Shown here: in pieces, positions 8,716 through 62,700 of the stretch
How the letters are laid out: each line of letters begins with the position of its first letter
Position numbering within the stretch: the stretch's first letter is position 1
NCBI GenBank assembly: GCA_011033025.1
Contig: WFMF01000025.1
Coordinates: forward strand, 297,018-361,017
Length of the DNA stretch: 64,000 bases
Reading direction: 5' to 3'
DNA from: Beroe forskalii
Lineage: Eukaryota; Ctenophora; Nuda; Beroida; Beroidae
Program-made: the position numbers and the translations under genes
Notes under the pieces: generated by a model
Told to the model about the DNA's origin: nothing
The model's database searches: none
The model's input: only the letters and a program-made list of their open reading frames with translations

Positions 8716-11700
8716 ATGGATAATGAAGGAGATAATGGAAAGGCTGCTCCGCTTGCTACAAATCCTGTTGCAGATGAATCTAATGATTTGCGGCTTTGTT
8801 CATTCCTCAGTGAAGACCAATTGACAAGATTTACTAATTTGGCCCGTGATGATTTGAATGCAATACGAAAAAGGAAACTAGAAGAAAGAGATAAGAAATT
8901 CAGGTGAGTTAATGTATCAGTACTTTTTATGGTTATTAATTTTTTGTTGCTGATCCGCAAATTTACCGATAACGTTTCAATTTAATCACCATTTGACAAT
9001 GATCTTACATCATTTAAATATCTATTCCTTCCAGTTCGGAATGGGAAGTCAACAAAAAGCTACTATCATCACAAGCAGAAGTTTATAACAGCAATGCCAG
9101 GAAGATCGCCCATATGTCTAGCAGGTGAATCATTTATTAATGTCTTAGCTAATCGTTACGTGACACGCCATGTCATCAGTTGAGTAATTGATGTTTGGTT
9201 GTATCGATCTGGTTGTTTCATTCAGTGAAAGGTCGAACAGCATATATGTACCCAACAGTATCTCCAATTTATTAGTTTTACCGAGGTATATTCAACAAAA
9301 GTGAAAAAGTGAAATGACGATTTTTCAACTTAGTGAATTCCATGACATTTAAATGTCTCACCATTTAATATATTTCCTTAGGTTACAATCGCTGCAAGAC
9401 AAGGAAACTACTGCGTGCAAGCAGATAACTGTAACTGCTAACGGTCACAGGCGACTGAAGTGCCCCAGTTTAGTGTTTGAGGCGATGCCAGCCTTACCCA
9501 AGTGAGTCTCAATATCATGTATTATTTATGCAGATGTGCGTTATCTGTATTTCTGTGGGCCGAAACCTTTCTGTTCTCTCTCGTCACCTGCTGATAGAAA
9601 ACCTCATCGCAGTTGACAAAGGGGGACTTGCATCTGCAAGGTAACCGCTGATGATTCAAAGTTTCTTCCCTCTCCACTCTGATCCTTGGATTATAAAATC
9701 GATAGCCAGTTTTTATTCTATGTTTATCATATACCCATACACCTTTATAGATAAGCCTTTGGATTTGACTCACGTCATGTCCATCCGATGCACATTTAGC
9801 ACAGCCGTGAAATGCAAAAGTATTCCGACACCGGGAATCGAACCCGGGTCTTGTGGGTGAGAGCCACAGATGCTAGCCCCTACACCATGCCGGAGACATC
9901 TCTCAAGTTTACAACTCCGAACTTGCGACCCTGAATGAAATGAGCGAATTTGTTAATAAAACAGGACACAGAAGTCATGACTGTTTCAGTATTTCAATCT
10001 CCATGACTGATGACTTGTAAGTACTTCAGGATTCGTCGGACATGGTCAATAAATTTGATTTTTCACCAATTCAGCCATTATCATCTCCGGCATGGTGTAG
10101 GGGCTAGCATCTGTGGCTCTCACCCACAAGACCCGGGTTCGATTCCCGGTGTCGGAACGCTTTTTCCTGTTTTTCGATGATCTTCAAGTTTCAAATGACT
10201 TGATTGACAGCTCTGTTACATTTTAAAGAGTAAAAGATTACATCAATTGCTTTGATTTGTCAAATTTCTTGCCGCTGTTTTTGAAATCCTCCTTTCTATG
10301 GGCAGTGAAGATGTTTGACATGGACATATTATATTAGTTAGCTAGAGAGTTTGAATACAATAGTGACACACGCCTTCGTACAGCATGGGCACACAAATAT
10401 AACTTAATTCACTGTACATAGTGCAATACACTACCACTATTGAGTATAAACTGTGAGACTGTAATTGTGTGCGTTGTTCGATGCGTGGACGTTCTGTATT
10501 ATATGAGGAACAGACTCATTGTTAACGATGACAGACATTTATCAACTGAAAACCAACTACTGCAGTCGACTATGGTCTCCCAAAAATACACTGGTCAGTG
10601 ATTCTCGGTTACTTGAAAAACAATTAGTCTCTACCGCAAGTTTTTTATCAGATTTAATTCTATATTTTTCAGATCACCGAGTTTATATGTGTGACTACAG
10701 GCAGGGTGAATTACAAATAAAAGCAAGTTTTTTATAGACGCTATGAATTCTTATTACACATCTCCGGCATGGTGTAGGGGCTAGCATCTGTGGCTCTCAC
10801 CCACAAGACCCGGGTTCGATTCCCGGTGTCGGAATACTTTTGTTAAATCTTTGGATGAATTTGGAGGCTAGAGCAACTGGTAAGCCATGATACATCCTGA
10901 CTTACCTCATGCACCAGTGTTAGGACTCCCTCGAATAGGAGCTGGGATGCGCTGGTTTTTCCCATCATTGAGTCTCGAGTGACTTTATTTCGTTATCCAG
11001 CGCTCTTACAGTATAGTAATACATGGAACAGAGGATTTGGCTTGCTGCTACTTATTGACCCAGAGATACCCAAGAGCTCTCCATCGTCTTGTGGCATATA
11101 TAATGCGTAGTTAATTTTGCATTCTAAGTTTTAGGACGTAATAATCTTGAACAAATTGGGCTATTGATGCCGCCGAACTGCCTACTTGGTAGATTTTAAC
11201 CCCTTCTGTTCCACGACATCCGTGACATGAATTCTTAAAACTTTGTAGCAGCTTTTTCGAGTTGTGAAAAGTACGCACTTGTGACCACTTCTTGTGACCA
11301 TTTCGGCTCGGACTACTGCAGTTCCTTTTCGAGTTGACACGCGTGTGAGGCAAGCATCGTAAGGTCCGCCTCTTTCATAAACTGGACTTCACCGCACGCG
11401 CGAGGCAGTGATTGTGATTATCTTTGCGCTTGCGGTATGATTTAAATTAATTTAATTACTTTTTGCTGCGCGCGGCGCAGCTCAGCACAATTCATTGCAT
11501 GCTTGCATGGCGGATCGGTTGGGCGATAATAAGCTACTTAATAACGTGGAAAATCTGTCGCTTGTCTGACTGAAACAACATAAGGTCTGTTTTCTTGAAT
11601 CCGATTCAGGCGCACTTCATCAGGTACAAATCGCTAGGTCACACAGATAGGTAGGATCATGGTAGCTAAATAATGCACATAGCAATCCTGCGGTATGTGG

Positions 11701-14700
11701 AATGTGCAAACGTTGCTATTCGTCATGCTTGATTTGATGTTGGTATGTGAACGTAACTTAATTCCTCATGTTTGATTTCATGTTGAGTGGTGTCAACGTC
11801 AAAGAGTCGGTATGTGAACGTAAAATCTTTCGTCATGCTTGATTGGGTCCCGAGTGGTGTCAACGTCATAGAGTTGGTATGCGGAATGTGCACACGTCAC
11901 CGTTCGTCATAGATGACTGAGTGGTGTCAGCCATCATGTATAAAGGCCTGTGCTGCAGGTCTGGTCATTATTTTTCGAGTTGTTTTGCTTAATTGTTGTT
12001 GATAATGTTGTTAAAAATGTTGTAGATAATGTTGTTAATAAAGGTACCGTTGTTAATAAGGTACCTTTGTAAATAAGGTACCGTCGTTAATAAGGTACCG
12101 TTGTTGTTAATAAGGTACCGTTGTTGATAGGGTACCGTTGTTAATAAGGTACCGCTGTTAGTAAGGTACCGACCTTGTTAATAAGGTACCGTTGTTGATA
12201 GGGTGCCGTTGTTAATAAAGTACCGTTGTTAATAAGGTACCGTTGTTAATGAGGTACCGTTGTTAATAAGGTGCCGTTGTTAATAAGGTGCCGTTGTTAA
12301 TAAGGTACCTTTGTAAATAAGGTACCGTTGTTAACGAGGTAACGTTATAAATAAGGTGCCGTTTGGAGCGAGTAACGTGTTCTCCCCTAGGTACTACACA
12401 TGGGTACCGGTTACGCAGAATGTGTTTGTGGAAGACGAGACAGTGCTACACAACATTCCTTACATGGGAGAAGAGGTGGGCTTCACTAGTATCTCCTTCA
12501 ATATCTGAGTCTATCAGCTGTTATGGCAGCGCTTTTTGTGGGATATCACCACCATTGAGAAACTAGCAAATGGCGTCGAGTTCATGTCAATTAATGTGCT
12601 TTAAATAAATGTGGTGGCTATGAGAACCAGGTTACTGTGACAGCACCCCATCAGGTTCTACAGCAGGATACCTCGTTTATTGAGGAGTTGATTCTGAATT
12701 ACGATGGCAAGATACACGACAGATGCGGCTTCACGGATACTTGCTTTGACGAGGCGAGTCATTGACTGAGTAATATGTGATTTAATACCGATCTTAAAAC
12801 CCACCAGATTTGTTAAATGGTTATCAAATGTTATGAAAATTTAATTTAGCTAAATCGGAATTGAAATGATTATTGAAAAATGACAAACTATCCAAAATAA
12901 AAGGTACTGGAAGAGCTGGTGTCGAAGGTTCAGAAGTACGAGGATCTGTCACTTGTGGATGCTATCCACGTCATATCTCCTCTCTATCCACAAATAGGTT
13001 ACTGCTACGTTTTCTTGTAATTTACTTGAAACACGGATTTTAATCTACAGAAAACCTCTTTTATCCAGTACTTACTCGTTGTTAACTATTTACACATCTC
13101 ACGTTGTAGGATAATTGAATACTGACGTAGTAAACATTTGATGGGAAACGGAGTAGCAGTATAAACTTCAAATCAAAATAAAACTCCGTCATCTTAAGGA
13201 TAGTTCGAGAAGTTCTTCATGTCATCTTCATCCTGAATTGGGCTGATTTATGATACTAGAAACATTTCATGTAAAAGACTCTGCACAGGTCGGATAGAGG
13301 ATTTGTACGATAAGTATATCCAGATAACAGGGACACAAGTTAACACTGTCAGCTGCTCTAATATCGACGAGAAGCTCCCTCACAAGGTAGTATTGTTAGC
13401 TCTTGGAATCTCCCCCCTCTCCTCTCTCCTACTTTCATTCACGAATCGCATCCTCCTCTCGCACTCTGCACTTGTCACATTCACCACCTCCTTTCTTCTC
13501 ATTCATATGTCTCGTTCTTAACACTCTCTGTATTTCTTACTGTCAGTCATTCCATCCCCTCTTCTCATCCCCTCTCTGCAGGTGTCTCGTGACCAGGTGC
13601 TGCACTCCTACACCTCCCTCTTCTGTCGGGGGTGTTACAAGTACGACTGCTTCCTCCACTCCTGGAACTCCCGGCCCCGGGTCCCCAAGAAGCGGCGGGA
13701 GCCCCTACCCACCTCTCCCTGCTCCTCGGACTGCTACCTCCACAAGTACTCCCGACCCCCCACCCCCGTCAGACGGCCCGAGCACCCCGGGGAGCCACCC
13801 TGTGAGGAGGCCAAGAAACGCCTTCTCAGGGTACGTTACAAGCTCTGTGTTGGTTTGATTGTCTGTTATATCAGCAGAATACTTAACCCCTCCTTTCAGT
13901 ACGAGTATGATTTGAACCCCTCCAAAGTTGCATTTCTTGCTATCATGCTTCTTCCTAATCTTGCAAAAAAAAATCGACTGCTCCGCATTCTGCATCATCA
14001 AATGAACTTTCACAGCATGCTGCCACCTTTTCCTTTTTAAGCACACTTTCTACAGGTCGAGGACACCTCAGTTTCCTCATCTCCGTCCATATCCATGACG
14101 TCATCCCCAGCCCTGTCGTCAGAAAGTGACGGTGATGATAAGAGCGATACGTCCCAGGTAATACGTGAGATGGAGAGTAGATTATATAACATTTCATTGA
14201 TTGTTCCAATTCAAATGTCTGATACATTGCTAGTCAAACACAAGGAAATGTTTTCCACGATTCGTTATTAATATTCGTCGGTCTGCAGGATTCTCAGTAC
14301 CTGCAACGTCAAGCTGAGGTGTGTGCTAGTTGGACCTGCAATGAGGAGAGTCTCTTTAACGCCCTCTTTCCGGTGTTCCAACAGAACTCTTGTAGTTTGG
14401 CGAGGATGCTCAGAACCAAAACATGCGTAGAGGTATTATTATCACTGTTTCTTCTTTCAAAGCAACCTCTCCTTTCCGATAGATCGCATCAAAGTATGAG
14501 TATGGTTGCTTCAAGTTTATCATTCCACCTGTTTTATAAGCAGACCTACTCAATTCCAAACGATTTGAAGCCACATCTTCTCCAACTATCCTTCTCTTTA
14601 TCACCATTATACTCTGGTGTCCAGGTGTTTGAGTATTCTAAGTTCTGCGGATCACACGTCCAGCCAGACGACACCTCTCCCCAAACCTCGAGGAAGAAAC

Positions 14701-16209
14701 AGAAGCGAAAGAAGAACAAGGTGGGTACAGGAGGAAATGCAATGAGAGCGGGGTGTATCAGGGGAGTCTCTACTTTTCTAGAATCTGAAAACGTGATTCT
14801 TTCTGTTTTAATATGAACTCAGTATTATTTCCTCTACATGACACCAATGTTATTTATACTCTGTAAGCCGTGTGATTTGCGTTACAGGTCTCATCAATCA
14901 CATCCCACAAGAAAAGATTCCAGAAGAACCTTCAAAAAGTTCTCAAGAAAGCACAAGAAAATCCTGGGAACTTGGTAAGTCTTGGTATAGCTTGTTCAAA
15001 CAAACTTTCATTTGTTGCAAACTTCAACTTTTTGCAGTGCTATACAGTACTAGAGTATTATTGGGCCAGGGGGCTCATGACATTTTCTTGCTTTTTTAAA
15101 TCGAGCAGTAAGAAAAAACAAAGGACAAAAAATATTTTTAACATCCCCTTGGGATTCTTTGAAAACAAAGCCAGACAGACAGAAAGAAGATTATTTTCTT
15201 ATATCCGTTGTCAGGTGGGTAGTTTCGTGCCGTGTGACCACCCTGGTCGACCCTGTGACCCATGTTGTTCCTGCGTGAGTGGGGGACACTTCTGTGAGAA
15301 GTTCTGTAATTGTAGCAAGGACTGCTCCAACAGATTCACTGGTGAGATAGCACTGTCATCTCGGTGACCCTAGTCCACAAGAAGTCGCGATCTGTAACCC
15401 GACAGTATCAACTTATCAATCCTTGTTCAACCTGCAACTTAATTCGAGTAAGTTGCAACTCATACCTAAATTTCGCGGCAGGTTGCAAATGCAAGTCGTC
15501 ATGTCGGACTCAGATGTGTCCCTGCTTCGTGGCAGTTAGAGAATGTGACCCGGACCTGTGTTCCAGCTGTGGGGCAGGTATTTGCCTTTCCTCAGACTAC
15601 TTGTAACGTTGAACTTCTGTTAACCACACAGATGATAAAGTATTGATTTCATGGATCGGGTAGTTGAATAAGAGTCACATAGGTCATGAGAAAAGAGATT
15701 GATTTATTCTCCTTTCGGTTGTATCATTGATACAGTATTACTGCATTTCTTCCCACTTCTCTTCCCCCTCTCTTCTCCCTCTCTTCCCACTTCTCTTCCC
15801 CTTCTCTTCCTCCTCTCTTCCCCCTCTCTTCCCCTATTCTCTTCCCCTCCTCTTCCCCCTCTCTTCTCCCTCTCTTCACCCTCTCTTCCCCCCTCTCTTC
15901 CTCCTCTCTTCCCCGTCTCTTCCCCCCTCTCTTCCCCTATTCTCTTCCCCCTCTCTTCCCCCTCTCTTCCCACTTCTCTTCCCCCTCTCTTCCCCACTTC
16001 TCTTCCCCGCAGGTGACACGCTGAACGATAAAGCGACCTCGTGTAGGAACGTGTGCATCCAGCGCCGGCAAGGGAAGCACCTCCTCCTGGCGCCCTCTGA
16101 TGTGGCTGGGTGGGGGATATTCGTGAAGGAAGCCTGCCAGAAGAACGACTTCCTCTCAGAGTACTGTGGAGAGGTCATCTCGCAGGAGGAGGCGGACAGA
16201 AGGGGCAAG
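8716..16209 (+). CDS. EZH: EZH-type Polycomb H3K27 methyltransferase, 3' end missing at gap
   Basis: Catalytic subunit of PRC2, which trimethylates histone H3 Lys27 in the nucleus. Fifteen exons join with consistent phase: 8716-8903, 9035-9124, 9382-9501, 12391-12475, 12655-12753, 12904-12997, 13289-13386, 13582-13830, 14056-14157, 14289-14432, 14625-14720, 14888-14974, 15215-15341, 15482-15577 and 16013-16209, giving 624 codons. Family landmarks in order are [45 protein letters not shown], a SANT-like exon (about 14289), a basic stretch (RKKQKRKK), the CXC cysteine cluster ([31 protein letters not shown]) and the SET start ([25 protein letters not shown]). The remaining ~90 residues of SET, including the NHS and catalytic tyrosine segments, are not present and presumably lie in the N gap. 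The first three exons are less certain than the rest because the N-terminus is poorly conserved. The start is the first in-frame ATG with an open frame to a good donor. Intron 5 appears to use a GC donor. The family is certain; orthology to vertebrate EZH1 or EZH2 cannot be split. Confidence 0.9.
9541..9770. repeat. dispersed repeat, partner of the copy at 33228-33440
   Basis: Lies in the large EZH intron. It shares GTGGGCCGAAAC, GTCACCTGCTGATGG-like and GGTAACCGCTGATGATTCA words in the same order with 33228-33440, followed by a conserved tail (ATACACCT.TATAGATAAG). The two copies are about 75-80 percent alike by eye. Confidence 0.6.
9824..9894 (-). tRNA. tRNA-Glu (CTC)
   Basis: The reverse complement folds as a 71-nt cloverleaf. 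The acceptor stem is TCCGGCA/TGTCGGA with one G-U pair, the anticodon stem is TGTGG/CCACA, and the 7-nt loop CTCTCAC gives anticodon CTC. The T arm contains GGTTCGATTCC. A TTTT Pol III stop lies just downstream on this strand. It lies in an EZH intron and is identical over the mature region to the two plus-strand copies. Confidence 0.93.
10086..10156 (+). tRNA. tRNA-Glu (CTC)
   Basis: Same 71-nt sequence and fold as the copy on the other strand at 9824-9894: anticodon loop CTCTCAC, T loop GGTTCGATTCC. It is followed by CGCTTTTT, a good Pol III terminator. The 5' flank shares ATCTC with the next copy. Confidence 0.95.
10763..10833 (+). tRNA. tRNA-Glu (CTC)
   Basis: Third identical tRNA-Glu(CTC). 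It is followed by ATACTTTTG, the same trailer as the minus-strand copy at 9824-9894, which suggests that copy and this one arose from a single inverted duplication. It is in the sense orientation within EZH intron 3. Confidence 0.95.
11690..11940. repeat. degenerate ~60-65 bp tandem repeat
   Basis: About four imperfect units share TTCGTCATGCTTGATT, GAGTGGTGTCAACGTCA and GGTATGTGAACGTAA. The array is intronic in EZH. Confidence 0.55.
12000..12362. repeat. 18-bp minisatellite (GTTGTTAATAAGGTACCG)
   Basis: About 20 copies of GTTGTTAATAAGGTACCG and variants. The array ends less than 30 bp before the EZH exon at 12391, so it occupies the acceptor region of that intron. Confidence 0.85.
15745..16010. 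repeat. polypyrimidine minisatellite at the EZH SET-exon acceptor
   Basis: Pure C/T array of about 265 bp, with units based on CTCTTCCCC, CTCTTCTCC and CACTTCTCTTCCCC. It runs directly into the acceptor TCTTCCCCGCAG of the exon starting at 16013, so the array is an expanded polypyrimidine tract. Open frames read from it on both strands are spurious. Confidence 0.9.
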
Positions 16210-16729
16210 GTAGGTTATATCGCAGGAGGAGGCGGACAGAAGGGGCAAGGTAGGTTATATCGCAGGAGGAGGCGGACAGAAGGGGCAAGGTAGGTTATAT
16301 CGTAGGAGGAGGCGGACAGAAGGGGCAAGGTAGGTTATATCACAGAGTGAGGTGGACAGAAGGGGCAAGGTAGGTTATATCGCAGGAGAGGTGGACAGAA
16401 GGGGCAAGGTAGGTTATATCACAGGAGGCGGACAGAAGGGGGCAAGTGTAGGTTATATCACAGGAGGCGGACAGAAGGGGCAAGGTAGGTTATATCGCAG
16501 GAGGAGGTGGGACAGAAGGGGCAAGGTAGGTTATATCGCATCAGGAGGAGGCGGACAGAAGGGGCAGTAGGTTATATCACAGGAGGAGGCGGACAGAAGG
16601 CAAGGTAGGTTATATCGCAGAGGAGGTGGACAGAAGGGCAAGGTAGTTATATCGCAGGGGGAGGTGGACAGAAGGTTGTAGGTTATACAGAGGAGGACAG
16701 AAGCAAGGTAGGTTATATCGCAGGCGGAC
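16180..16729 (+). repeat. 40-bp tandem array copying the EZH exon end plus splice donor
   Basis: The 40-bp unit comprises TCGCAGGAGGAGGCGGACAG, then AAGGGGCAAG and the donor-side GTAGGTTATA. The first copy (16180-16209) is the real exon end encoding [10 protein letters not shown]. About 13 copies follow, progressively decayed, until the array enters the scaffold gap. Most keep the donor AAG/GTAGGT. Confidence 0.92.
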
Positions 16730-16829
16730 NNNNNNNNNNNNNNNNNNNNNNNNNNNNNNNNNNNNNNNNNNNNNNNNNNNNNNNNNNNNNNNNNNNNNNN
16801 NNNNNNNNNNNNNNNNNNNNNNNNNNNNN
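16730..16829. other. 100-N assembly gap
   Basis: A run of exactly 100 N, a common placeholder for a gap of unknown size. It interrupts the 40-bp array and probably hides the last EZH exons. Confidence 1.
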
Positions 16830-17077
16830 ATGATTATTATAGGCTACAAATCATACTATCATGAACCATTCTTAAATTATTTGATTGTCTGTACCTTTCT
16901 AAAGAATTCAAAACGAGAATCTTAATAACAATATAATTAGTGTATCGAAATAAATTATCTACCTCAGATACTAATATATAATTGGTGAAATTTGGTAGCA
17001 TTATATCTTCATCCTTCTTTTGTGTGTTGTTTGATTGTAAATTGTGGAGATCAATAAAAACTTTGTTTACTTAAACT
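16830..17077 (+). other. possible EZH 3' untranslated region
   Basis: AT-rich, with no open frame of note, and AATAAA at 17053-17058. It would be a reasonable 3' UTR for the gene interrupted by the gap, but nothing in the sequence links the two. Confidence 0.2.
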
Positions 17078-17333
17078 TTGTTTACTTGTAAAGAAGGGCT
17101 ATCTGAATTATTTGATCCAAGCCTGGAACCAAGATATGAAGATATAAGCGACCATGATAGTGACGAGGAGCCTGCTGTCGTTGGATACGAAAGTGGAGAC
17201 TCAAATGGTGGTTCAGAGAATGAGGTATCTCACACTGGTGAGAGTATCAACGATGGCAGTTTACCGACGGATTGGTGCTCTTGCACACGATGTGAAGCTG
17301 TCCACGGGCCTGATGATGACTTTCCCCTCAAAA
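17078..17333 (+). pseudogene. fragment resembling acidic linker plus start of a P2X7-type zinc-binding (WCxC) domain
   Basis: An open frame encodes an acidic, serine-rich segment (EDISDHDSDEEP and GYESGDSNGGSENE), followed by LPTDWCSCTRCEAV. The WCxCxxC spacing recalls the cysteine-rich P2X7 C-terminal-like domain that is expanded in many invertebrate and transposon-associated proteins, where further cysteines follow. Here the frame enters the 21-bp satellite at about 17320 and the rest is missing. The frame itself stays open through the satellite to 17500, but that part is repeat translation. It is unlikely to belong to EZH. Identification rests on a short motif and is tentative. Confidence 0.3.
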
Positions 17334-17585
17334 CCCACCCCTTTCCACTCAAAACCCACCCCATTCCACTCATAACCCACCCTTTTCCACTCATTACCCA
17401 CCCCTTTCCACTCATAACCCACCCCTTTCCACTCATAACCCACCCCTTTCCACTCATAACCCACCCCTTTCCCCTCATAACCATAGCTTCCGACCCTTGA
17501 AAATCCGTTCGGAGGGCAGTTTTTCGCCCAAAAAGGAGGGCAAATCAACGAAAAAGGAGGGCAATATGCTACCAAAATGTGGCGA

Positions 17586-17622
<37 letters not shown>

Positions 17623-19450
17623 GGCCGCCTCAAAATGCAATCCGAGATAGTGCTTATTAGGTGTATTTTCAGAATGATGGGTGTATTTCAGGAACTAAAG
17701 GTGTATTTTAGGTGAATTCAGTAAAGGTGTATTTACAAAATCAATCCGATATAGGGCTTATTAGGTAATTTTCAAAATCATGGGCGAATTTCAGGAAACA
17801 AAGGTGTATTTTTGGTCAATTCAGTAAAAGTGTATTTGCAAAATCAATCTGAGATAGGGCTTATTAGGTGTATTTTCAAAATCATGGGTGTATTTCCGGA
17901 ACTAAAGGTGTATTTTAGGTGAATTCAGTAAAAGTGTCTTTACAAAATCAATCCCAGATGGGCTTATTAGGTGTATTTTCAAAATCATGGGCGAATTTCA
18001 GGAAACAAAGGTGTATTTTTGGTCAATTCAGTAAAAGTGTATTTGCAAAATCAATCCGAGATAGTCCTTTTAAGGTGTATTCCCGAAATAAATGGTCGAC
18101 CTTTTTTTTTTTTTTTTTTGGAAACCGCCCAAAAATACCTATTTTAGGCTGTGAATCTTAGGTGTATTTTGGGAAGCATCGAAAAGGAGGGCATATTGGG
18201 CCTAAAAGAGGGCAAGAGGGGGGAGGCTTGGAGGACAAGACCAAAAAGGAGGGCAAAAAGAGGGCATGAGAGGGCACCCTCTCAAAAAGAGGGCAGTTCG
18301 GAAGCTATGCTCATAACCCACCACTTTCCACTCATAACCCACCCCTTTCCACTCATAACCCACCCCTTTCCCCTCATAACCCACCACTTTCCACTCATAA
18401 CCCACCCCTTTCCACTCTTAACCAACCCCTTTCCACTCAAAACCCACCCTATTCCACTCATAACCCGCCCCTTTCTACTCATAACCCACCCCTTTCCACT
18501 CAAAACCCACCCCATTCCACTCAAAACCCACCCCATTCCACTCATAACCCACCCCTTTCCACTCATAACCCAGCCCATTCCACTCATAACCCACTCCTTT
18601 CCACTTATAACCTACCCCTTTCCACTCATGACCCACCCTTTTCCACTCATTACCCACCCCTTTCCACTCATAACCCACCCCTTTCCACTCATAACCCACC
18701 CCTTTCCACTCATAACCCACCCCTTTCCCCTCATGACCCACCCCTTTCCACTCATAACCCATCCCCTTTCCACTCATAACCCACCCCTTTCCCCTCATAA
18801 CCCACCCCTTTCCACTCATAACCCACCCCTTTCCACTCTTAACCAACCCCTTTCCACTCAAAACCCACCCCATTCCACTCATAACCCACCCTTTTCCACT
18901 CATAACCCACCCCTTTCCCCTCATAACCCACCCCTTTCCACTCAAAACTCACCCCATTCCACTCAAAACCCACCCCATTCCACTCATAACCCACCCCTTT
19001 CCACTCATAACCCACTCCTTTCCACTTATAACCCACCCTTTCCACTCATAACCCACCCTTTCCTCTCAAAAACCCACCCCTTTCCACTCAAAACCCACCC
19101 CTTTCCACTCATAACCCACCCCTTTCCACTCATAACCCACCCTTTCCACTCATAACCCACCCCTTTCCACTCATAACCCACCCCTTTCCCTCATAACCCA
19201 CCCCTTTCCACTCATAACCCACCCCTTTCCACTCTTAACCCACCCCTTTCCACTCAAAACCTACCCATTCCACTCATAACCCACCCCTTTCCACTCATAA
19301 CCCACCCCTTTCCACTCATAACCCACCCTTTCCACTCATAACCCACCCCTTTCCCCTCATAACCCACCCCTTTCCACTCATAACCCACCCCTTTCCACTC
19401 TTAACCCACCCCTTTCCACTCAAAACCTACCCCATTCCACTCATAACCGA
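17320..19450. repeat. 21-bp satellite (CACTCATAACCCACCCC core), split by an element
   Basis: Units of 21 bp on CACTCATAACCCACCCC plus TTTC occur in two blocks, 17320-17481 (about 8 copies) and 18310-19450 (about 54 copies). The second block contains higher-order variants (CTCAAAACCCACCCCATTC, CTCTTAACCAACCCC) that recur in the same order, so segmental duplication has acted within it. Long open frames through it (7-residue THPFPLI period) are repeat translation. Confidence 0.92.
17482..18309. mobile_element. 828-bp hAT-like non-autonomous element inside the 21-bp satellite
   Basis: The ends are CATAGCTTCCGA and its inverse TCGGAAGCTATG. They are flanked by an 8-bp duplication CTCATAAC at 17474-17481 and 18310-18317. 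The CA...TG ends and the 8-bp duplication fit the hAT superfamily. Near both ends there are GGAGGGCA/AGAGGGCA words. The middle (about 17636-18085) holds about four imperfect ~115-bp direct repeats around GGGCTTATTAGGTGTATTTT, bounded by two poly-T runs. It has no transposase. Because the host is itself a repeat, the duplication is less decisive than usual. Confidence 0.7.
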
Positions 19451-22400
19451 CCCTATGATCCTCAAGCGACCTTTTCCTTTACTTTTGGAGCATTTCCCTT
19501 ATTTTTAAGCATTTCCCAATTTTAAGGGGATCTCTCATTTCTGCATACGGGCCAATGCTAAAGCAATCAAGTTCAACATCATAATTCATTACAATTACAA
19601 TATGCTAATAATAAACTAATGTAAAACAAGCTATCATACGATTGATTTTTGTTGGCCAATTTGATTTAAGCAGTGTATGGTGAAAATGTCAATTAAGAGC
19701 ATTCTCTTGCTAACATTTGCGTAGAAATATGTTGCCCATTTGGTTTTCTACCATCATTTAACCATCAGTTGCCAATGTCTGTGTCTCAGAAATAAACAAC
19801 TGCCAGACAACGCAAGTCTTAATTCCAGCCTTATTTAGGAGTAGATTTATGCCATGAAATACCAAAATTCTGCAATTCTGACAAAACCATGCCAAATTTG
19901 TTATCAAATAGCACTCTGCGAAATGTTTTTGGTCATGGCCAATCACTACGAACCAAAGAAATTAGAGAAAAGTCATAAAATGAGCATGATAATAAAACAC
20001 GATAAATCAGGCTGATGATCAACATCTGACAACTATTAATGCTTGGGACCCTTTAAATGAATGAAAAGGTCATTTTGTTGCATGAATCACACCAAAATAG
20101 CATTTTCGACACGGTACGACCCATCATTAACATTCACATGCATAATAACTCAATTCCTTTTATCAATTTTCCTCTACGCTTTAAACCCCTTTACCAATCA
20201 TCAAAATTACTTGAAATAGCTTATATGTCCAAATCCACGTTACGTAACGCACACTTTTTACTCGATTTTGAGGATTCAAAGGTCAAGGCAGCCAAATTGA
20301 AGTCATCACAGCACTATTCCTTGCTTTAGAGACAAACTTCAAACATTCGTTGAGCCTATTTGATGTTTTGAATGAGAATTGGTTGCAAAGAAAATTTTAC
20401 ACAAGCCATCAAAAAATGTTACGTAACGCACAGGACTGGATCTAATAAAATCAATTGACAGAATTTGATCACAAAAGTCAGTTCCATGTGAGCGAATGGG
20501 GGAGTTCACACTAGTTTCTAATGATAGAAGAATATATAAACTTTAAGTTTAACAATGCTTTTATTGGTTGATGCACTCCATTTTCTTTTACCAGGCTCAC
20601 ATAATTTGTTACGTAATGCACAAATTGCCTGTTACGTAATGCACAAATTTTTCCTCACTGTGAATAGACCTATTTTATACTGTTCTATTGGCATAGTAAG
20701 GCCTCAATTAGATGCAGGAGCAATCAAGGTCCTCAATCTAAAAAAATGTTGGTGGTTCTATCAATTTCAGTCCCATATTAGGCCATCAAAGTGTAGCAAA
20801 AAAATTGGATCAATTTTCTATGATTTTACTGTCATACTTAGAATATTTCATTTCTGACAGGGTTAAGATAACTCTTGGTATCACCCAGCAACTTTCCAAG
20901 ATGAATAACGGCCGATTCCTATCGTGAGAGGGCCAAATTCAACGATTTTCGAGTTTGCTAGTAGAAAAAGATGTTTTTTCATGTGTCACAAAGTGGCAAA
21001 TTTTTGAGAAAATCACTTTTTGAGGCCATTAAAGCACAATTCCTCAAGGGCATTGATATCTTATACCCCTGAATACATTTTTGATAGCATTTAGGTTCTA
21101 GAAAAAGAAAATTTATCGATTTATGCTTTGATTTTCTAATGTATGTGGGATTGAATGACTAAATACTAACTTTTTCTTTGTAATTCTTTTCTAAGTTCAA
21201 ATTTACTTTACATTCCTTATCTGTAAGTTATTACAGAATTTTCTGATTAGAAATGGTTATTTCTTGCAGTTTCTTTCATTGAAAATTAATTGGAAAAAGT
21301 TTTGTGCATTACGTAACGTTACGTATAGCACAAGGCCATATTGTCTAAATTTGATCAGTCTAAGCTTTCACACATGTGCCATGACGACCAAAAGTATCCA
21401 AAACAGCTGAAAATGAGTTTTCGGCATAAATGGAAATGAATTAAGGCTTTTACAAAACTTTTTGCATCATTTTGTTACGTAACGCACACATCAATTGTCC
21501 CCAAAGAGTTTTAACGTCACTTCAAAATAGTTAGAGAAAGCGAGTTTTCATATTAAAATATGAATCAAACTAGATCAAAAGTCCACTATTAAGCAAAAAT
21601 TATTCCCTTGATTACAAATATAAGCATTCTTTATGATAATTCAAAAATGCCATTAATTGAGGGCTGAACATTGTCCAAAAGTAGCCCTTACTCAATCGCG
21701 CAAATCGTCGAGGTCTTTCAATATTTTTTGATGCGGTTTTTTGCATCATTTAGAGGAAAGTCTTAGCTTTCATTTGAAGTCAAAACTTTTTGCTGGACTG
21801 ATGATTTCAAATTTCAAAATTTTTCCTCGTTTTCGTGGATTTGCCCATATAGTGGCATTTGGCTAATTAATTTCAAGGTCAGCTATCGCATGAGACTTCG
21901 GTCATGGGTAGTTTTGAAAAAAAAAGTATAATTCCATTGATTTGAAATCGTTTTCCACCATTGAAATCACACAATGCTATTTTTTGTTACATAAGGCTGG
22001 AATTGCCCATTTTGAATTTCAAGAATCGATGGCTACAGTGGGTTGTGTGTGACCAATATGTCAAAATAGTGACAAAAATATCAAATGGGCAACATTTAGC
22101 TATGATGTGGTCATTTTTGTTATTCGAAATTTAAATGTTTGCTTCTATTTATTGAGGATTAAAAATGGCCAACTAAAATCGTCTATATGATACCTAATAA
22201 TGTTGATTTTATAGAATTCTTTATTGTATGATTTTATGGCAGGAAAAGTGCCATTACATGATTGACAATTTAGATTTATTCTACTGAAATGATCAATCAC
22301 TTCAACTATCACAGTATATATACCCATATTTTTAGTCTATTGATGGGTGGCCCTATTAACAGATTTGGAATTTGACTTGGTGCTTGCCCTCAGCACAACC

Positions 22401-22827: not shown

Positions 22828-22831
22828 TTAA

Positions 22832-23442: not shown

Positions 23443-23663
23443 TTAAGCTCTGAAAATTTGGACCTGTAAGAGTACACAGGAAACTGATGGAAAACTTAAG
23501 CATTTGGACCTATAAGAGTACACAGGAAACTAATAGAAAACATAAGCATAACAAGTACATATATCATTTATGGTATATATAGTTCTAAACTTCTAACACT
23601 ACACATATTAAATTGACTAACTGACAAGGTTATGTCCCACTTTGTGGAGTTCCTGAAGGGAGA

Positions 23664-31638: not shown

Positions 31639-31785
31639 ACTGGACATTCTGAATTCATACTGTTAGTACCAGTAATACTGATTCAATTCAATATCAACAA
31701 ATTCCATTATCATTTATCTTTCTTATGAGACAGCAAATCAGTCAGCAAATCACCATCACAGCAAATCACCATCGACGACCAAAAC

Positions 31786-50088: not shown

Positions 50089-50459
50089 GTGAGCCCCACA
50101 ACACTCAACCAATCAGCGCGGAGTGTCTTGCAAATCACTCACATTGATTGGTAAAACCTCAAAGCACTATGAGTGGAGTGCTTTTTTAGTATAATTTATT
50201 TTTCATGTATTTAAATTTTGAGACGAGCTCCGTTCGTTGATATGATATAGTAATACGAGAATCTCCATGGCCTATTTTTCCTGCTCAACCAATAGTAAGG
50301 GTACAAAAACGCCGTATTAGTTGAGCTGAAGTTAAATATTAATGCAATTTAAAGCATGGGGGAAATGTTTTTGAATTTCTTTTTAATGTAATTTAAACCT
50401 TGCATAAATCCATAAGATTTTCAGCTAAAGATGAAAGGATACTAATGATAGAATATTTT

Positions 50460-51190
50460 CATATTTATAAATATCGGGAACTGGTGGATACTGGGTGGAT
50501 ACTAATGGTAACTGTGGATACTAATGGTAACTGGGTGGATACTAATGGTAACTGCGGATACTAATGGTAACTGGGTGGATACTAATGGTAACTGTGGATA
50601 CTAATGGTAACTGGGTGGATACTAATGGTAACTGTGGATACTAATGGTAACTGTGGATACTAATGGTAACTGTGGATACTAATGGTAACTGGGTGGATAC
50701 TAATGGTAACTGGTGGATACTAATGGTAACTGGGTGGATACTAATGGTAACTGTGGATACTAATGGTAACTGGGTGGATACTAATGGTAACTGGGTGGAT
50801 ACTAATGGTAACTGGGTGGATACTAATGGTAACTGGGTGGATACTAATGGTAACTGGGTGGATACTAATGGTAACTGGGTGGATACTAATGGTAACTGGG
50901 TGGATACTAATGGTAACTGGGTGGATACAACGACTAATGGTTACTGGGTGGATACTAATGGTAACTGTGGATACTAATGGTAACTGGGTGGATACTAATG
51001 GTAACTGGGTGGATACTAATGGTAACTGTGGATACTAATGGTAACTGGGTGGATACTAATGGTAACTGGGTGGATACTAATGGTAACTGGGTGGATACTA
51101 ATGGTAACTGGGTGGATACTAATGGTAACTGGGTGGATACTAATGGTAACTGGGTGGATACTAATGGTAACTGGGAGGATACTAATTTAA
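50460..51190. repeat. 21-bp minisatellite (GTGGATACTAATGGTAACTG core)
   Basis: About 35 copies of a 20-21 bp unit, GTGGATACTAATGGTAACTG(G), downstream of the last GPCR exon found. The VDTNGNW-period open frames are repeat translations. Confidence 0.9.
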
Positions 51191-51299
51191 CTGAGTATGG
51201 GGTTTTACTGAGCTACAGGGGCTCGCAAGTTGTGGTAACTAATTTCTAAAATTCACATTTGTGCACAGCTATTCTGGTTTTTTGCAAATAAATTTTATC

Positions 51300-51720
51300 T
51301 CGTGGATACTTTTTATTTTAGTATCACCCAGTTACTCACTCAGTTACCATAGTTACCATTAGTTACCATTAGTTACCAAATTTGGGCTCCAGTATCCACG
51401 AAAATTGATTTTTACAAAGTGGTGGTAACTGATGGATACTAATTCGTCCGTGGATACTAATGGATACTAAATGGTGACTAACGGCAATTTTTGGTATCCG
51501 TGGTAACTGGGTGGATACTAAATGGTAACTGATGGTAACTAATGGTAACTAATGGATACTAATTTAGTATCCACGGTGGATACTATTTTAGAAAAATTAG
51601 CCACCAGTATCCATTAGTATCCGTGGATACTAAATCTGAAATTTAGTATCCACCCAGTATCCACCCAGTATCCACCCAGTTACCACGGATACTAATGGTA
51701 ACTAATGGATACTAATTTTC
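51300..51720. repeat. degenerate mixed-orientation extension of the GGATACTAATGGTAACT array
   Basis: Words of the neighbouring array in both orientations (AGTTACCATTAGTTACCAT, TAGTATCCACCCAGTATCC, GGATACTAATGGTAACTAA) are interleaved over about 400 bp. The arrangement suggests inverted duplication of parts of the array. Confidence 0.7.
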
Positions 51721-53716
51721 ATCATGTTCCTGTGGTACAACATTGCCTTCACAAGGTGTGCCGGCCTGATTAACTTCGAGACACTTTGACTCATGGCTTC
51801 ACAGTTACAGATATGGGAATACGGGATGAATAGGAATACATAAATATTGCGGCAATAATAATCGCGTCAAATTTCTATAATCAATGTGTCAAATATCAAG
51901 ATATCAATATCTATACTAAGTGAAATTCTATAACAGGTGCCTATCTCAGTATCTTGAGCCGATGACAATCCAGACACTAGGTCACGTATAACGAGTTCTA
52001 ACGCACACACACAAACTATAGCAACGATGTGGGAGTAGCAACACAAAATGTCAGTTGGCGTATCCAATTACATTCTGACAGTTGATAGGCCGCAATAAAT
52101 TGTACGACTTCAGCACCTCTGAATATGACAGGGCAGTACGTAGGCATATGATATGCTCCATGTACTTCACTTGAAAGCTTCAAGATCGGTTTGGGCAGGT
52201 TCCTTGAGCAGTTCCCGGACACGCCACCTGTTCCGGGGTACACAGCTATGAACAACAACTCATTGCTGAGCTGGAAGGAGACGCGCATGACGCAGATGTC
52301 CTGAGCACGCCCAGTCAAACAACCCTAAACGTACCTAAACGTACGTACGAAAATAGAATCACAAAGGAGAATTGAAAACAGATTAGGATAATATCGTATT
52401 CGTTTGCAAACAGGGTTTGTCATCTCAGCTCTGAGCTTCGGTCATTTGCGAATCCTGTAAACAGGAAAAGAAACAGAAAATTCGAAAAGTTGACAGTTGA
52501 ATTGAAATGATTAAATTTATAACACGATCAAACAATCTCGATAAGTTCTGCCATGACGAGTGACGACGCGACGTAACCGGGGACATGACTTGAATGAATG
52601 AATTAATGAAGTCCAATAAATTAAAATGCCGCGCGCGCAATGATGCGCGCGCGTTTAATTATCCAAATTTGCGCAAAGTTATTGCTATTCAAACGATAGT
52701 TTTAAATGCGCGGCGTAAATACTCATCAAAGAATACATGGACGGTCAGACATATGGCAGGTGTCGCCACCTCGAGAAATGAGAATTCTTCTGAAATTTCC
52801 GATCGCGCGGCGCCATGTACGTAGGTGAATATACTGTTAAATCAGTATCACACGCGTACAAATTGTGGTTTTGTGGAAATTGCAGACACTGATCTCAGAG
52901 GTGGCGACACCTCAGTAGTAAGTAATGTGAAAAAGACAAAATATTTTGCATTTTACTTAATAATTTGACGAACATTGCCCGTCCAATTTATAGCTGAATA
53001 GAGGACAACTTTAAAAAAGCTGACGTGTGCGCGGCGCGTTTCGCGACGCCCCTGGTTCCTGGGGGAAACGTGCCAGCCGCTTGACGCTTCAGCTTCGCCG
53101 TTCTTGTCAGTGGGAGTCTGGGACTATAGTCAAGCCATAGCCATTAAAAGTTTCAATCAATTTCATTTTAAATTTTCATCTGATAAATTTCGAAATCGAA
53201 TGATTGAGGAAGTTAAAAGCAAATAAAACTATTTTAATTTTTAGTAACTGTAAAATTGCAAAATGTTTAAATTCTCTCATTATTAATCATGATTCAACTG
53301 CGGTCATTTTTATGTCGATTATATTATTATCATAATATAATTTGCCTTCACAATACTAGTACTAAAAATACAAAAATCATGATCCAAAGAAATTCTATCA
53401 TGATAAAATGAACATGATCGAATGAAATTAAAATAATGAAATTAAAATAATGATAAATATAAATAAATATCAAAATCGAATATCGGTCTCAAATTAACTC
53501 CCAAAATAATTATCGGCAGCGTTTATTAAGGGCCATCCTTTTCTTATTATATAGGTCACGAAAAGCCGGTAAGATTAACTTTAAGACGATGATTCGCAGT
53601 TTATATCATTAATTATTAATATTTGGAGTACAGTGTAGATAGAATTAAGTCCAGTTCTCCGAGAGCTACTTTAGGAGGATCCCACAGGGCTACAGGCCGC
53701 AGGGCTGCTCATCTTC
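51721..53716. other. otherwise gene-free stretch
   Basis: Apart from the possible exon at 52199-52304 nothing is recognised. A GC palindromic patch (GCGCGCGCAATGATGCGCGC) lies at about 52631. The ABCG stop codon region starts at 53717. Confidence 0.4.
52199..52304 (+). CDS. possible C-terminal exon (34 codons to a stop)
   Basis: After TTTGGGCAG a phase-1 exon would read FLEQFPDTPPVPGYTAMN and continue NNSLLSWKETRMTQMS to a stop at 52302-52304. The composition (Ser/Thr/Pro, hydrophilic) is plausible for a GPCR cytoplasmic tail and the orientation matches the upstream receptor exons. No homology was recognised and TM5-TM7 are not located between, so it may be chance. Confidence 0.2.
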
Positions 53717-56700
53717 TCATCTCCTCACTCGGCACATGAGACAGCTCCACGCAAAGATGCACATCACAGCTCCAAAGATGCAGAGAGCGGCCATGTTAGG
53801 CCACCACATCGTGCCCTGAAAAGCGCGAGTCAAATCATTGAATGTGAAACAGGGTGATCAATAGAGTGGTGTCAGGATGATCAATGCACCGGTGTCAGAG
53901 TGATGAATGGACTGGTGTCAGGGTGATCAATAGACTGGTGTCAGGGTGATGAATAAACTGGTGTCAGGATGATCAATAGACTGGTGTCAGGGTGATGAAT
54001 AAACTGGTGTCAGGTTGATCGATAGACTGGTGTCAGAGTGATCAATACACTGGTGTCAGGGTGATGAATAAACTGGTGTCAGGATGATCAATAGACTGGT
54101 GTCAGGGTGATGAATAAACTGGTGTCAGGTTGATCGATAGACTGGTGTCAGAGTGATCAATACACTGGTGTCAGAGTGATAAATAAACTGGTGCCAGGGT
54201 GATCAATAGACTGGTGTCAGGGTTATCAATATACTGGTGTCAGGGTGATCAAAAGACTGGTGTCAGAGTGATCAATAAACTGGTGTCAGGTTGATCGATA
54301 GACTGGTGTCAGAGTGATCATTACACTGGTGTCAGAGTGATTTCACTGTAGATGGTAAATTTACAGTAAACATGACCAGGAATACTGGAAGAGTCCAGGC
54401 TTGTTGGTATGAAAAGGTTGCAATATAGCAATATAAGTCCGTATACCAGTGCAGGGTCCACACACTTACGGGATCAATTCCATAGCGGAGCAGAACATCA
54501 GTTCCGTTGTTGAAGAAACAAGGGTGGGGGCCCGGACAATCTGAGGAAAGTGAATCCAATAAAATAGGTGGAACTGGCATATGAGATTCAAAGATAAAAT
54601 TTTATCAGTTATCTCCGAAAAAAAAAAAAAAAAAAAAAAAAAAACTTTCCAATCTCAATAAAAATACTTGTTAGTGAATGGCAATCTTGGAGCTTTGAAG
54701 GGCAGCCAACCTATGTCGAGTCCCTGGAACTCGTTTATCATGAGCATGTCAAAGCCGTATCTAATCCAGGAGATATACTTGACAGGGAGGAAATAGATGG
54801 GGGTGGACCTAAAAGTGAACATTATTAGTACTTTGAAGAGTTGTGAATTATCACAAAAGATGAATCAGTTCGATAGATTATCTGGAACTTGAACTTAACA
54901 TTTAGCTTAGACACTTAAAAAAGTCACAAGTTCCAGCTAACAAATCACATAGAAATCAACTCACTCGTCGTTTTGGTAGAGCCCCCCAAAGAGGAAGAAA
55001 GGCATGATAATGGGGGCGGTGAGGGCTCCTGCTATCCGCACATCACCAGTCCACGCAGAGAGGAACCAGCCCAGACCGGTGGAGGACCACGAGATTCCGA
55101 TACAAGCTAGGACGGAGATGAAGAACGCACTCACTGAATTCTTCAGACCTGCGGATCAGTGGTGTCAAGGATAACCGTAAGTCGGCAAAGTAGTGTCAAA
55201 GATAACCGTAGTCCGATAAAGTGGTGTCAAGGATTACCTTAGTCCGACAAAGTAGTGTCAAGGATTATCGTAGTCCGAAAAAGTGGTGTCAAGGATTACG
55301 TAGTCCGAAAAAGTGGTGTCAAGGATAACCATAGTCCGAAAAAGTGATGTCAAGGATTACGTAGTCCAAAATAAGCGGTGTCAAAATATCCATAACGGGA
55401 CTAATGCCACTGGTGTGACAGAAAGTCAAAAACCTATCATGAAGTAGCAGATAGCGAGCTGCAGTAGCGGCAAGCCCACCAGATAGGGAATCTCAGCAAA
55501 TATCTTGGAGAGGAAGTAGGGAACTGTTGTGTACATTCCATTCTGATACTCCCTCTTCACTACAGGCAGCTCCAGAGGGATGGACTACGGGGGGTCAGGG
55601 TTAGAGAGGATTGGAATTCAGGAGATATTGAAGTTAAAACATTAAATAATGCATGTATGGATTTTTTTTTGATAATTTCTGATTCATTCGTCAGTTTTAT
55701 TGATAAGCTTACTGCGTTACTTGCAACCCAGGCTACTACATCTTGGCAATAAATTGGCTTGGACAGTGTGTTCGAATAGATTGGGCTATAGAAGAATAGA
55801 ACTAGAAGGAATATTAAGACTAACCATGGTCTGAATGAAGACGTTTCCGAATGTGAAGTACACCACGATGTTGAAGAGGACTCCGCTCTTGTTTTGTGCA
55901 GCGGTCTGATCATTCTTAGTGTCGTAATACGCCAATCCGCACAGCAAACCAACTATCTGCAGAGCACATTAAGGTTAAATTGGGAGGGTGAAGTTCGGAG
56001 GATTTAGGAGGGACAGGGTAAAATTTGCCAATTTTGCTCAACCTCAAGTACTCCAGTATTTCAAGACCCGCTCACTTGAACTATCGGCTCATGACAGGCT
56101 GCCCTCTGACGGTGTACTCACAATGGTCTGGACTATGCGTGTCCTCTGACGGTATACTCACAATGGTCTGGACTATCCGAGTCCTCTGACGGTGTACTCA
56201 CAATGGTCTGGACTATGCGAGTCCTCTGACGGTGTACTCACAATGGTCTGGACTATGCGAGTCCGGGTGTAGGCGGGGTTCCTCACGGTGTTAAGGAAGC
56301 TCCTCTTGAAGTTCTCACCAACTTGGCGCCAAGTTGACGACCTGATCTCACTTCCACTGATGGGGAGATTCTGTTAATCTACAAAACACAACACAGAGTT
56401 GCAGTGATTCTATCAATTCATGACTCAATTCATGTCTTAATTCATGTTTGAACAATATGTATTTTCTGAATGTTGTCAGAACTCATTATTCTTAAAAATC
56501 AGTGAGAAAATGATGTTATAGTAGCTTACTCGATTTCAGTTCTTCCAAAGCCGTCGTTGGAAAGCCCTATCGTCATCTGCACCTTTTTGTAGTCTTCAGA
56601 TCTTTTGTAGTAGTCTATCATTCTCTGAAGTTGAGCGGTATGACTCATGGGTTTGATTTGTCAGCATTTTAATAGAAAAATTATCTACTAATTTTTCATA

Positions 56701-59700: not shown

Positions 59701-62700
59701 TAAATTCTGATATCTATAACCAAGTCTGTACATGGACAGTTAAATCGGGTTTCTGGAACGCTTACTCTGAAGAAAATTACCAAGAACAGATGGACTACGG
59801 CTTCAATTACCCTAACGGTAACCAGAGATTCCCCGCCAAATCCATAGCGCCAGTAATCGCGGGAAACGAGTGCTATACCAGCCGTGGTATGTACAATGGC
59901 AAGCGATCTGCAACAGCAAGTGGTAAGCCATGCGCTGACTGGTACAACCGATACTGGCGGAATGGACACAACCACTGCGGCATTGCCTGGAGCTGGGACA
60001 CCAAATCTTTGCGTGAGATGAAGCCCTGGTGCTACACGGAGAAGTACGGGAGTCTGGACGCCCCGTGGGATTACTGCGGAGTTCCCAAGTGTGTGTATGA
60101 CGAGGAGTGTTACACGGGAAATGGGGCGGGCTACGGGGGTTCAGCGGGCCACGCCGAGGACGGGTCGCGCTGCGACCGCGTATATTCCTGGAACGACGAG
60201 TCTCGGTGGTGTAGACCCTCTTACCAAGGAGGGAGTATCCAGAATAAGCCGTGGTGTTCGGTGAACGGGGTGGTGAAGCCGTGTGCGGTAGACAAGTGCG
60301 GAGTCCGTACGGAGTGCGCGGAGCCTAACGCGGGGATGTGGGGCACGATCAGGGCTAAGAGCGATGGGAGGTGCTGGAATGTGGACGGAGTCGGGAGGAA
60401 AGGAGACATACTTTACATGAGTAGCTGCGGTCCTACCACTGATCTCTTCAGGATGGATAGCCAGGGTTTCATCACTCACAAGAGGTCAGGGCTCTATGTG
60501 GATCCTAAGGGAGGGAGGACTGGGCAGACCAACAACTACTACTTGTGGGAGCAAGGCTGCACCTGTATAAAGGGTAAACACGCCAGTGTCTTCACACTTG
60601 AGAAGCACCCTGAGGACAGCTGCGCCTTCAAACTGAGAGCTGTTTCTGAGGAAGGGGATGTTTGTGTGAATGAATATCTCTGGAAGGCCCCTTGTAGCAG
60701 TAGTGTTGCACAATGGTTCCACTTCGTCCCGGCAATGGACCGCAAGTGCAGCTACGACCAACAGGACGGCACCCAGTTGACCGGGACGTCTGATGAGACC
60801 TACTTCACTCTGTTCGGAGCTCAGACGGCGTGCAGCAGGTAAATAGAGCTGGGAATCAAATACTTTTCTTGGTCTTGACTTTTAAAGTGAATCAGCTAGT
60901 ATTTACCCTTTTTAATCGTACGTTTGCTGTTTTGGTTCATGCAAAAGCCCTAGCAAGTACAAAATGGCTGCATGTAGCATTATACTTTGGTGGTACTGGT
61001 ATCTTTTGACCATAAATTTCTGTTTCATCCAATTTAACAACGTTTTGCCCCATTCAGGTTGGGAGAGAAGTGTGAAGGGGTGTTTGTAAGTGAGGAACAT
61101 CCTACACAGTTCAGACTGAGTACCAAGAAAGATAGCATTGCTGCAGAGAACTACACTTCCTGGGTCAAGTCGGAGTGTGAAGATGTCTACTTTAGTCCAA
61201 TGGAACAGAAATATTAGAGGCTGTAAGACAAAAGTACTGTAAGAGGCTTAGGTATTAGAGACTTAGTAACAGAAGTATTAGAGGATTAGAGATACTGTAA
61301 GACAAAGGTATAAGAGGCTTAGTAACAGAAATAATAGACAAAGGTATTAGTTGCTTAGTAACAGAACTAGTAGAGGCTTAGAGATAGTGTAAGACAAAGG
61401 TATCAGAAGCTTAGAACGACAAGTATTACAGGCTTAAAGACATAAGTTACTTCGCCGGCGCCCCATCTGAACAGAGGTATTGAACTGGTGACATGTTTTA
61501 GGTTGCCAACAGATTTCAAGAAAATAACTTGTGAAATTACCTTACCCATATTTATTTATTTACCTATTCGTTTCAATTTGTCACAGAAACTCCAAACTCT
61601 GAATGCACTTCTTCCAAATTGATAGGAAAAGGCCCTTATTACAAATGATAAAAAAGAGGGTCCAAATGGGAAACACTCTCGGTTCATGGAAATTGATAGG
61701 AAAATGCACTTATATCTCTTGAATTGATGGAGTTAAGGCCTTCATTTTTGGCACTGGTTCACGGACAAATAAGTTTGACAAAACCCCTTACTTTTGATTA
61801 AGATCCCGTCGATTACACTGTAACCCGTGCAACCCAACTTTGGAAAGTAAGTCTGTATGTGGGGACTTCCTCACTTTTATTCACTGAATCAGTATAGAAT
61901 GTGGCCTGACGCAGGCCTTACAGCTTGCTCTAGTCTTTACACCCTAAGGCAGGATTCCCCTCCACGGACTCTCAAGTCTTCAGACAGAGATCTCCAACTC
62001 ATCGGCCCCCTTCAGACCTATCCCTTTTCATTAGAGGCTGGTACATACAGACGTATAGTCGTATAGGGTGCCATATGTTTTCGTCTTTTTGCTTTGTAAG
62101 CCTATTTTGGTGGAACAAATTTCCATCTTAAGTTGTCACTGGTCATGGTGTAAAACAATTGCAACTTGATTGTTTATGACATCATTAGGCATCATTTGGT
62201 AAAAATAACCATCACCCGCCAGTCGCTCTGCCGCATTCCGATATGTAAATATTATGTCTTGATTGTGCAGGGTGCACTGTGCAGTGTACAGTGTGCACCA
62301 TCTTAATGTTGATGTGCACAATCCACATGTTTCTAAAGTTCTTGAACAGCGTAAACTGTTTAGGACTGCTAGGCTATAGGGCTCGTGAATGTCGTCCCTA
62401 GGCTTAGGTTATATGCGTCAATATAATTGCACGTTTTAAACAGTACATGAAATAGTTTCAAGCATGGCATGGGGATGGATTTCTAAGGGAAGAACCTTAC
62501 GGTAGGGATGGTCTGTACGTGAAATTCAATGTCCTAGACCATTTCCTAGACCATAAACAACTTTCAAAAGTCTTACTTTCTTTGATTTCGGCAACATTAA
62601 ACTTCATTTTTATGATGTATATATAAACCTATGGAGATTGGGCCTCCTTTGAGCACAATGGCAAATTTTGACTGTTTCAACCAGCTTGATTGACAAATTT

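Follow-up and report, generated by a model that had tools for sequence, protein, structure and literature searches.

Tandem repeats that copy or directly abut the edge of an exon raise the question of whether splice junctions are places where such arrays are preferentially born, or whether arrays arise throughout non-coding DNA and are tolerated where they happen to touch an exon. The question is posed by a stretch of 64,000 nucleotides of the ctenophore Beroe forskalii (assembly GCA_011033025.1, contig WFMF01000025.1; C303:297018-361017), the whole of which is referred to here as the window and which belongs to a 216-Mb genome assembled in 1134 contigs. The window contains genes for EZH, an ABCG protein, a class-A-like receptor and a secreted protein with ephrin-receptor-like and F5/8 domains, and an initial annotation of its sequence had proposed that minisatellites are born at exon boundaries in every one of these genes, through a genome-wide process rather than by chance. 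Junction arrays are a real and recurrent pattern. At or beside junctions they are in genuine but limited excess, about 1.5-1.8-fold beyond the number expected when arrays are allowed to straddle exon edges, and this excess is strongest for arrays that abut the splice signals without copying the exon. We consider it likely that the pattern reflects tandem duplications that arise at random in non-coding DNA and are then filtered by selection on the coding sequence, together with this residual enrichment near splice signals.

Anatomy of junction arrays in an independent intron sample

Introns were collected outside the window from 13 gene loci located by Pfam family, ten of them encoding dynein heavy chains and three encoding CCT chaperonins. 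Near-intronless dynein frames of 3715 and 3010 aa and CCT genes with long open reading frames served as references, proteins from three loci being added later, and spliced alignment yielded 233 introns. The length cut-off was 60 bp and each of the two flanking exons had to score 25 or more, which left 154 introns. One of these, C514:522-588 (66 bp, weak flanks), carried a junction-spanning array and was dropped before all tests, leaving 153 introns with a total length of 89,846 bp and a median of 253 bp. Tandem Repeats Finder (TRF) reported 75 arrays with a period of at least 7 in 40 of the 153 introns, the 14 CCT introns contributing a single array, away from junctions. The locus C441 was chosen for its visible array and is left out of all sample counts. 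Sample positions such as C277:10264 refer to the fetched, sense-oriented stretch. Long uninterrupted dynein frames of 3715, 3010 and 1583 aa (C1024:1412001-1432000, C534:70001-90000 and C26:9056-10036) coexist in the genome with paralogues that have dozens of introns, and these long-frame genes may be retrocopies or intron-stripped genes.

Exon sequence is copied by 11 arrays in 10 of the 153 introns, or in 11 of 153 (~7%) when C277:10264 is counted by eye. On the donor side, the end of the exon is repeated together with the donor at C277:10264, C248:21803, C321:12843, C580:4710, C414:1648 and C955:6209, and again at C790:463 and C790:2818. On the acceptor side, the arrays at C489:5233, C277:23476, C414:931 and C790:463 copy the AG, the sequence that precedes it and the start of the exon, and several acceptor-side arrays include branch-point-like words; one intron of 279 bp carries both a donor-side and an acceptor-side array. 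A unit that holds both sides of a junction is found in EZH and ABCG of the window, in the 11 sample arrays and in C441, where an 86-bp unit (76 bp of exon and 10 bp of intron) is present in ~7 copies in one dynein gene copy and 3.0 in its neighbour, the one pair in which copy number was seen to vary between paralogues.

The composition of these arrays follows that of the junctions beside which they lie. The donor words GGTAAG, GGTGAG or GGTTAG occur at 4.7/kb in donor-side arrays against 0.5 in interior arrays, and the branch-point-like word CTRAY at 18/kb in acceptor-side arrays against 5.6/kb in interior ones; arrays on both sides copy sequence that was already present. Arrays near junctions and arrays far from them have the same mean copy identity of 87% (P = 0.98) and are alike in GC content (P = 0.49).

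Placement of arrays and their probable origin

Across or within 30 bp of a junction lie 27 of the 75 arrays, whereas uniform placement of each array within its own intron predicts 9.3, and none of 200,000 simulations reached 27; the pile-up within 30 bp of junctions that the initial annotation expected is thus present in the 153 introns. Uniform placement within introns was nevertheless rejected as the sole null, being too generous to the finding: it forbids the straddling duplications that are counted, and a duplication that straddles a junction should be harmless when its outer copy is spliced. Repeats at splice sites call for a null that allows straddling, the omission of which lowers the expectation in this sample from 14.8-18.2 to 9.3.

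In the reading that we favor, short tandem duplications would arise across the non-coding DNA of a minisatellite-rich genome and then grow or shrink, while those lying wholly within exons would be purged. A duplication straddling an exon edge would be tolerated, presumably as a neutral change, provided that the outermost copy, meaning the 5'-most donor or the 3'-most acceptor, is the one spliced in cells and the original message is kept; its expansion would leave near-identical splice sites stacked as a ladder that extends into the intron. Filtering alone would predict about the observed number of exon-copying arrays, which is 11 against 9.6 under the pooled straddling-allowed null (P = 0.36), or against 7.4 under the own-intron version. 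The bootstrap range of the ratio, 0.56-1.75 or, at score 80, 0.73-2.1, reflects few arrays and low power and is compatible with an excess of up to approximately twofold. The residual may come from slippage-prone splice-signal tracts, such as the branch point with its pyrimidine tract and G-rich donor flanks, and from slower turnover at intron edges.

Occupancy, meaning the fraction of positions that belong to an ungapped tandem duplicate with 25 of 30 matching bases at an offset of 7-150, was not used as the sole measure, as its per-base values mix array length with place of origin. It is 0 in exons more than 60 bp from a junction, 0.029 at donor and 0.016 at acceptor junctions, ~0.07 in introns at 40-60 bp and 0.04-0.07 thereafter, with 0.09 of pooled interior bases. 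By this measure, arrays are no denser at junctions than elsewhere in introns, an outcome that by the initial annotation's own standard counts against its proposal: 2-3% of positions are occupied at junctions against 4-7% deeper in the intron. Array edges pile up at junctions because coding sequence stops arrays and because seeds are in modest excess.

Several results weigh against filtering as a sufficient account, and most of them also favor a mutational process aimed at junctions, in line with the proposal of the initial annotation, in which the arrays would be seeded by breaks linked to transcription or splicing, by R-loops or by slippage at splice-site sequence. With straddling allowed, the own-intron null predicts 14.8 junction arrays where 27 are observed (P = 0.00008), a 1.8-fold excess that filtering alone is insufficient to produce, and the pooled null with array ends extended predicts 18.2 where 28 are observed (P = 0.006). 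The excess is present in introns shorter than 600 bp (17 vs 9.5, P = 0.00065) and, more weakly, in longer ones (10 vs 5.3, P = 0.024). Arrays that lie near a junction without copying the exon number 17 against 8.6 with ends extended (P = 0.0045), and 16 against 5.8 at a score of at least 80 (P = 0.0001). Exon-copying arrays themselves lean upward at strict cut-offs, with 10 against 7.1 at score 120 under the pooled null (P = 0.14; the own-intron expectation being 5.2) and 6 against 2.9 at the same score in introns shorter than 600 bp (P = 0.042). Throughout the genome, finally, the strong donor word CAGGTAAGT forms 247 pairs at a spacing of 20-50 bp, and the reversed word, the one control word used, forms 20, although the two differ little in single occurrences (1734 against 1365). 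Of these 247 pairs, the 100 that are listed fall in 11 places, so that a few big arrays dominate the listed pairs and the pair counts overstate the effect; the pair excess is a hint only. At one of these places, from C248:400078 onward (contig coordinates), the repeated unit reads YCEGGDLHTWLSA(R) up to the donor, a sequence that may be kinase-like.

A process directed at junctions remains, in our judgment, unlikely. Exon-copying arrays, which would be the direct footprint of birth at an exon edge, show no significant overall excess under the straddling-allowed null, so that for them targeting does not follow. The occupancy profile has no junction peak, and seven of the 16 near, non-copying arrays counted without end extension (bootstrap ratio 1.06-2.69) come from the single locus C248. 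A donor word at a real junction is no likelier to lie within an array than a decoy is. For two donor words the counts are 1 of 22 and 3 of 32 at junctions and 9 of 29 and 14 of 47 among decoys; for two acceptor words they are 1 of 26 and 1 of 45 at junctions and 4 of 16 and 8 of 49 among decoys; random non-coding 8-mers give 381 of 3886. This comparison speaks against targeting and carries little weight, because copies inside junction arrays are themselves counted as decoys. What survives of the proposed genome-wide process is the 1.5-1.8-fold residual at or beside junctions; the exon-copying arrays are near chance. We similarly doubt that junctions are hot spots of tandem-repeat birth in this genome, with a rate well above that of intron interiors; if they are, a sizeable share of introns would carry ladders of near-identical, intact splice sites that the cell ignores.

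It is improbable that the arrays made the introns. According to this explanation (Rogers-type intron gain), tandem duplications of exon sequence with AG|GT in them were turned into introns, and the location of arrays at junctions would follow from the way in which the introns formed. In its favor, the 40-bp EZH repeat is divisible into units that start with GT and end with AG, whose removal as whole units therefore restores the frame, and the intron-gain model is a published one: fission yeast genes whose introns span several 24-bp duplicates of exon sequence are cited in PMC4974935. However, among the 10 of 12 array-bearing junctions that could be placed on a common reference, four share intron position and phase with a paralogue (compared with 19 of 132 introns overall), so that the array did not create these four; the introns of the listed cases also extend past their arrays, by at least 97 bp on the far side.

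Slightly less probable again is the retention of arrays for a benefit to splicing from surplus donors, branch points or pyrimidine tracts. The splice dinucleotide is intact in 44 of 47 inner copies (excluding the receptor array of the window), whereas the other dinucleotides within those 16 bp average 0.84. Without C441, nine of whose copies among the 47 were scored one base off, at the neighboring GG, the count is 35 of 38. Young arrays would, however, appear intact in any case, and only inner copies with at least 10 of 14 matching flanking bases were scored. Moreover, three does not divide the length of 15 of the 17 listed units; use of an inner copy would then shift the frame, and inner copies must therefore normally be ignored or their products lost. 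Each junction-copying array is in this respect a natural experiment in spliceosome choice among near-identical sites.

The least probable explanation is an artefact of low-complexity splice-site tracts or wrong gene models: TRF on a sample shuffled in 40-bp blocks did report 42 arrays in 10 copies, eight of them within 60 bp of a junction, but this amounts to less than one false junction array per shuffled copy against 27 real ones within 30 bp, the copying of junctions can be followed base by base, and a single open frame runs through the EZH model.

Comparison with known systems

Internal tandem repeats on exon-intron boundaries are known from human genes in segmental duplications (PMC2812944). 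The two systems share minisatellites with units of ~30 bp on exon-intron boundaries and a repeat number that varies between paralogues, but the human repeats modify exons or form new introns, whereas in Beroe, judging by homology, the outer copy keeps the message and the remaining copies lie in the intron. The human study compares near-identical paralogues, and its accessible passages contain no null for array placement. Among the titles listed by a literature search, none concerned the measurement of array placement at junctions against a straddling-allowed null, most subscription journals lying outside its coverage.

In the case of the potato RdRp gene (PMC4974935), a duplicated segment likewise crosses an intron-exon boundary with working splice signals; there, one duplication makes a new intron, whereas here two to more than ten copies stand at a junction, and for at least some junctions the array is not the origin. 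Intron sliding in Drosophila (PMC2891723) resembles the present pattern in that tandem duplication of splice-signal sequence shifts the location of the intron, although its footprints are old duplications of exonic proto-splice sites rather than arrays. The CeRep25B minisatellite of C. elegans is over-represented near regions of alternative splicing (PMC4039745), but it forms one dispersed family, while the arrays described here differ from one another and many of them copy their own junction or its surroundings.

Carranza and colleagues (PMC9225289) report that under exon definition the chosen sites are those nearest to each other across the exon, and under intron definition those nearest across the intron. 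By this rule of site proximity, the ladders would be safe only under exon definition, unless the organism follows another rule.

Arrays and other repeats of the window

In the window itself, TRF reports 56 merged arrays with a period of at least 7, which occupy 13,550 bases. About six of them lie within 30 bp of a mapped or eye-read junction, and most of the others fall where no exon was mapped. Given this load, the list behind the statement that every host gene bears a junction array is a selection, which ignored about 50 further arrays. EZH was identified by Pfam and PDB matches, ABCG by PDB matches and the secreted protein by Pfam.

EZH, a methyltransferase of PRC2, is encoded on the forward strand at 12391-16209 in 12 mapped exons, which form one continuous open frame supported by Pfam and PDB and join to the expected PRC2 sequence. 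The frame ends in ...EADRRGK, inside the SET domain, with a donor at 16210. Across this last mapped donor lies the donor-copying array (16172-16729, forward strand; TRF ends it at 16675), whose 40-bp unit, TCGCAGGAGGAGGCGGACAGAAGGGGCAAG|GTAGGTTATA, comprises 30 bp of exon and 10 bp of intron; its first copy is the real exon edge, and the repeats run into a 100-N assembly gap (16730-16829). A Pfam search of 16831-26432 did not find the missing half of the SET domain, so the intron, and perhaps the array, is longer than assembled. The acceptor-tract array is a CT-rich 11-bp repeat (15748-16008, forward strand) that adjoins the exon at 16013, 4 bp away, in the position expected of the pyrimidine tract, and does not copy the exon; it is the one TRF array in the 11 introns between mapped EZH exons. 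Both EZH arrays were thus described correctly, and the mapped part is flanked not only by the array across 16210 but also by a second one that had been missed, a 17-bp repeat of GTTGTTAATAAGGTACC in 19 copies (12031-12363, forward strand), which ends 27 bp before the exon at 12391. The exon 5' of 12391 is unmapped, and the intron with the 17-bp array may also contain a further array, at 11742-11881. The EZH intron at 12754 appears to begin with GC rather than GT (GAG|GCGAGT).

The two ABCG arrays, both on the reverse strand, also hold up. The first (56103-56264) consists of four copies of a 40-bp unit, each with 22 bp of exon and 18 bp of intron, and overlaps the exon ending at 56242, an edge that no homology match covers and that was placed by eye, using the open frame and the donor. 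The second is a 31-bp array (55158-55385) that fills most of a 285-bp intron (55149-55433), 9 bp from the exon on the acceptor side and 48 bp from that on the donor side; the upstream exon of this intron is covered by a PDB match and the edge of the downstream exon was read by eye. Relatives of the 31-bp array occur on several contigs, most among the matches listed being on C913.

The arrays assigned to the remaining two genes are less secure. In the receptor gene, a 2.5-kb array of 33-bp units (46060-48603, forward strand) carries CCCAG|GG in nearly all units and runs into the exon read as 48580-48747, the start of which is formed by its last copy; 68 of the 71 matched inner copies retain the acceptor AG. 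Because the 33-bp unit is in frame, the array could be partly coding, and it could accordingly be either intronic or in-frame coding sequence, which leaves the proposed acceptor array standing as to its position and its AG but not firmly as to its intronic nature. From its motifs, the receptor appears similar to G-protein-coupled receptors (GPCR-like); a Pfam search of 43000-52601 found no receptor family. In the case of the secreted cysteine-rich protein, the array said to copy the stop codon comes down to a weak 36-bp repeat of 2.1 copies by TRF in the 3' flank of the gene (61300-61374, forward strand), which begins 83 bp past the stop codon (61215-61217), and the best autocorrelation of 61181-61460 is 0.52.

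An 8-base core, TGGTGTCA, is the commonest 8-mer among 189 arrays with a period of 10-100 and occurs in seven of them, at 11742-11881, 53850-54341 and 55158-55385 of the window and at the loci C248, C2 and C514; it may be a minisatellite core or the relic of a dispersed family. TGGTGTCAA occurs seven times in the window, where 0.87 occurrences are expected. A 21-bp satellite, CTTTCCACTCATAACCCACCC, at 17320-17482 and 18310-19453 flanks a 103/207-bp array and poly-T tracts, and dense short palindromic repeats of the TCCAATGGA type, with nested periods of 9, 11, 22 and 27 bp, occupy 3138-3705. Two retroelement frames lie at 31729-32898 and 37049-37894, one that may, from a motif, be reverse-transcriptase-like and an RNase H frame (Pfam E 6e-12). 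Between them, at 35282-35975, lies a degenerate interstitial GGTTAG/GGTTTG array that resembles a telomere repeat.

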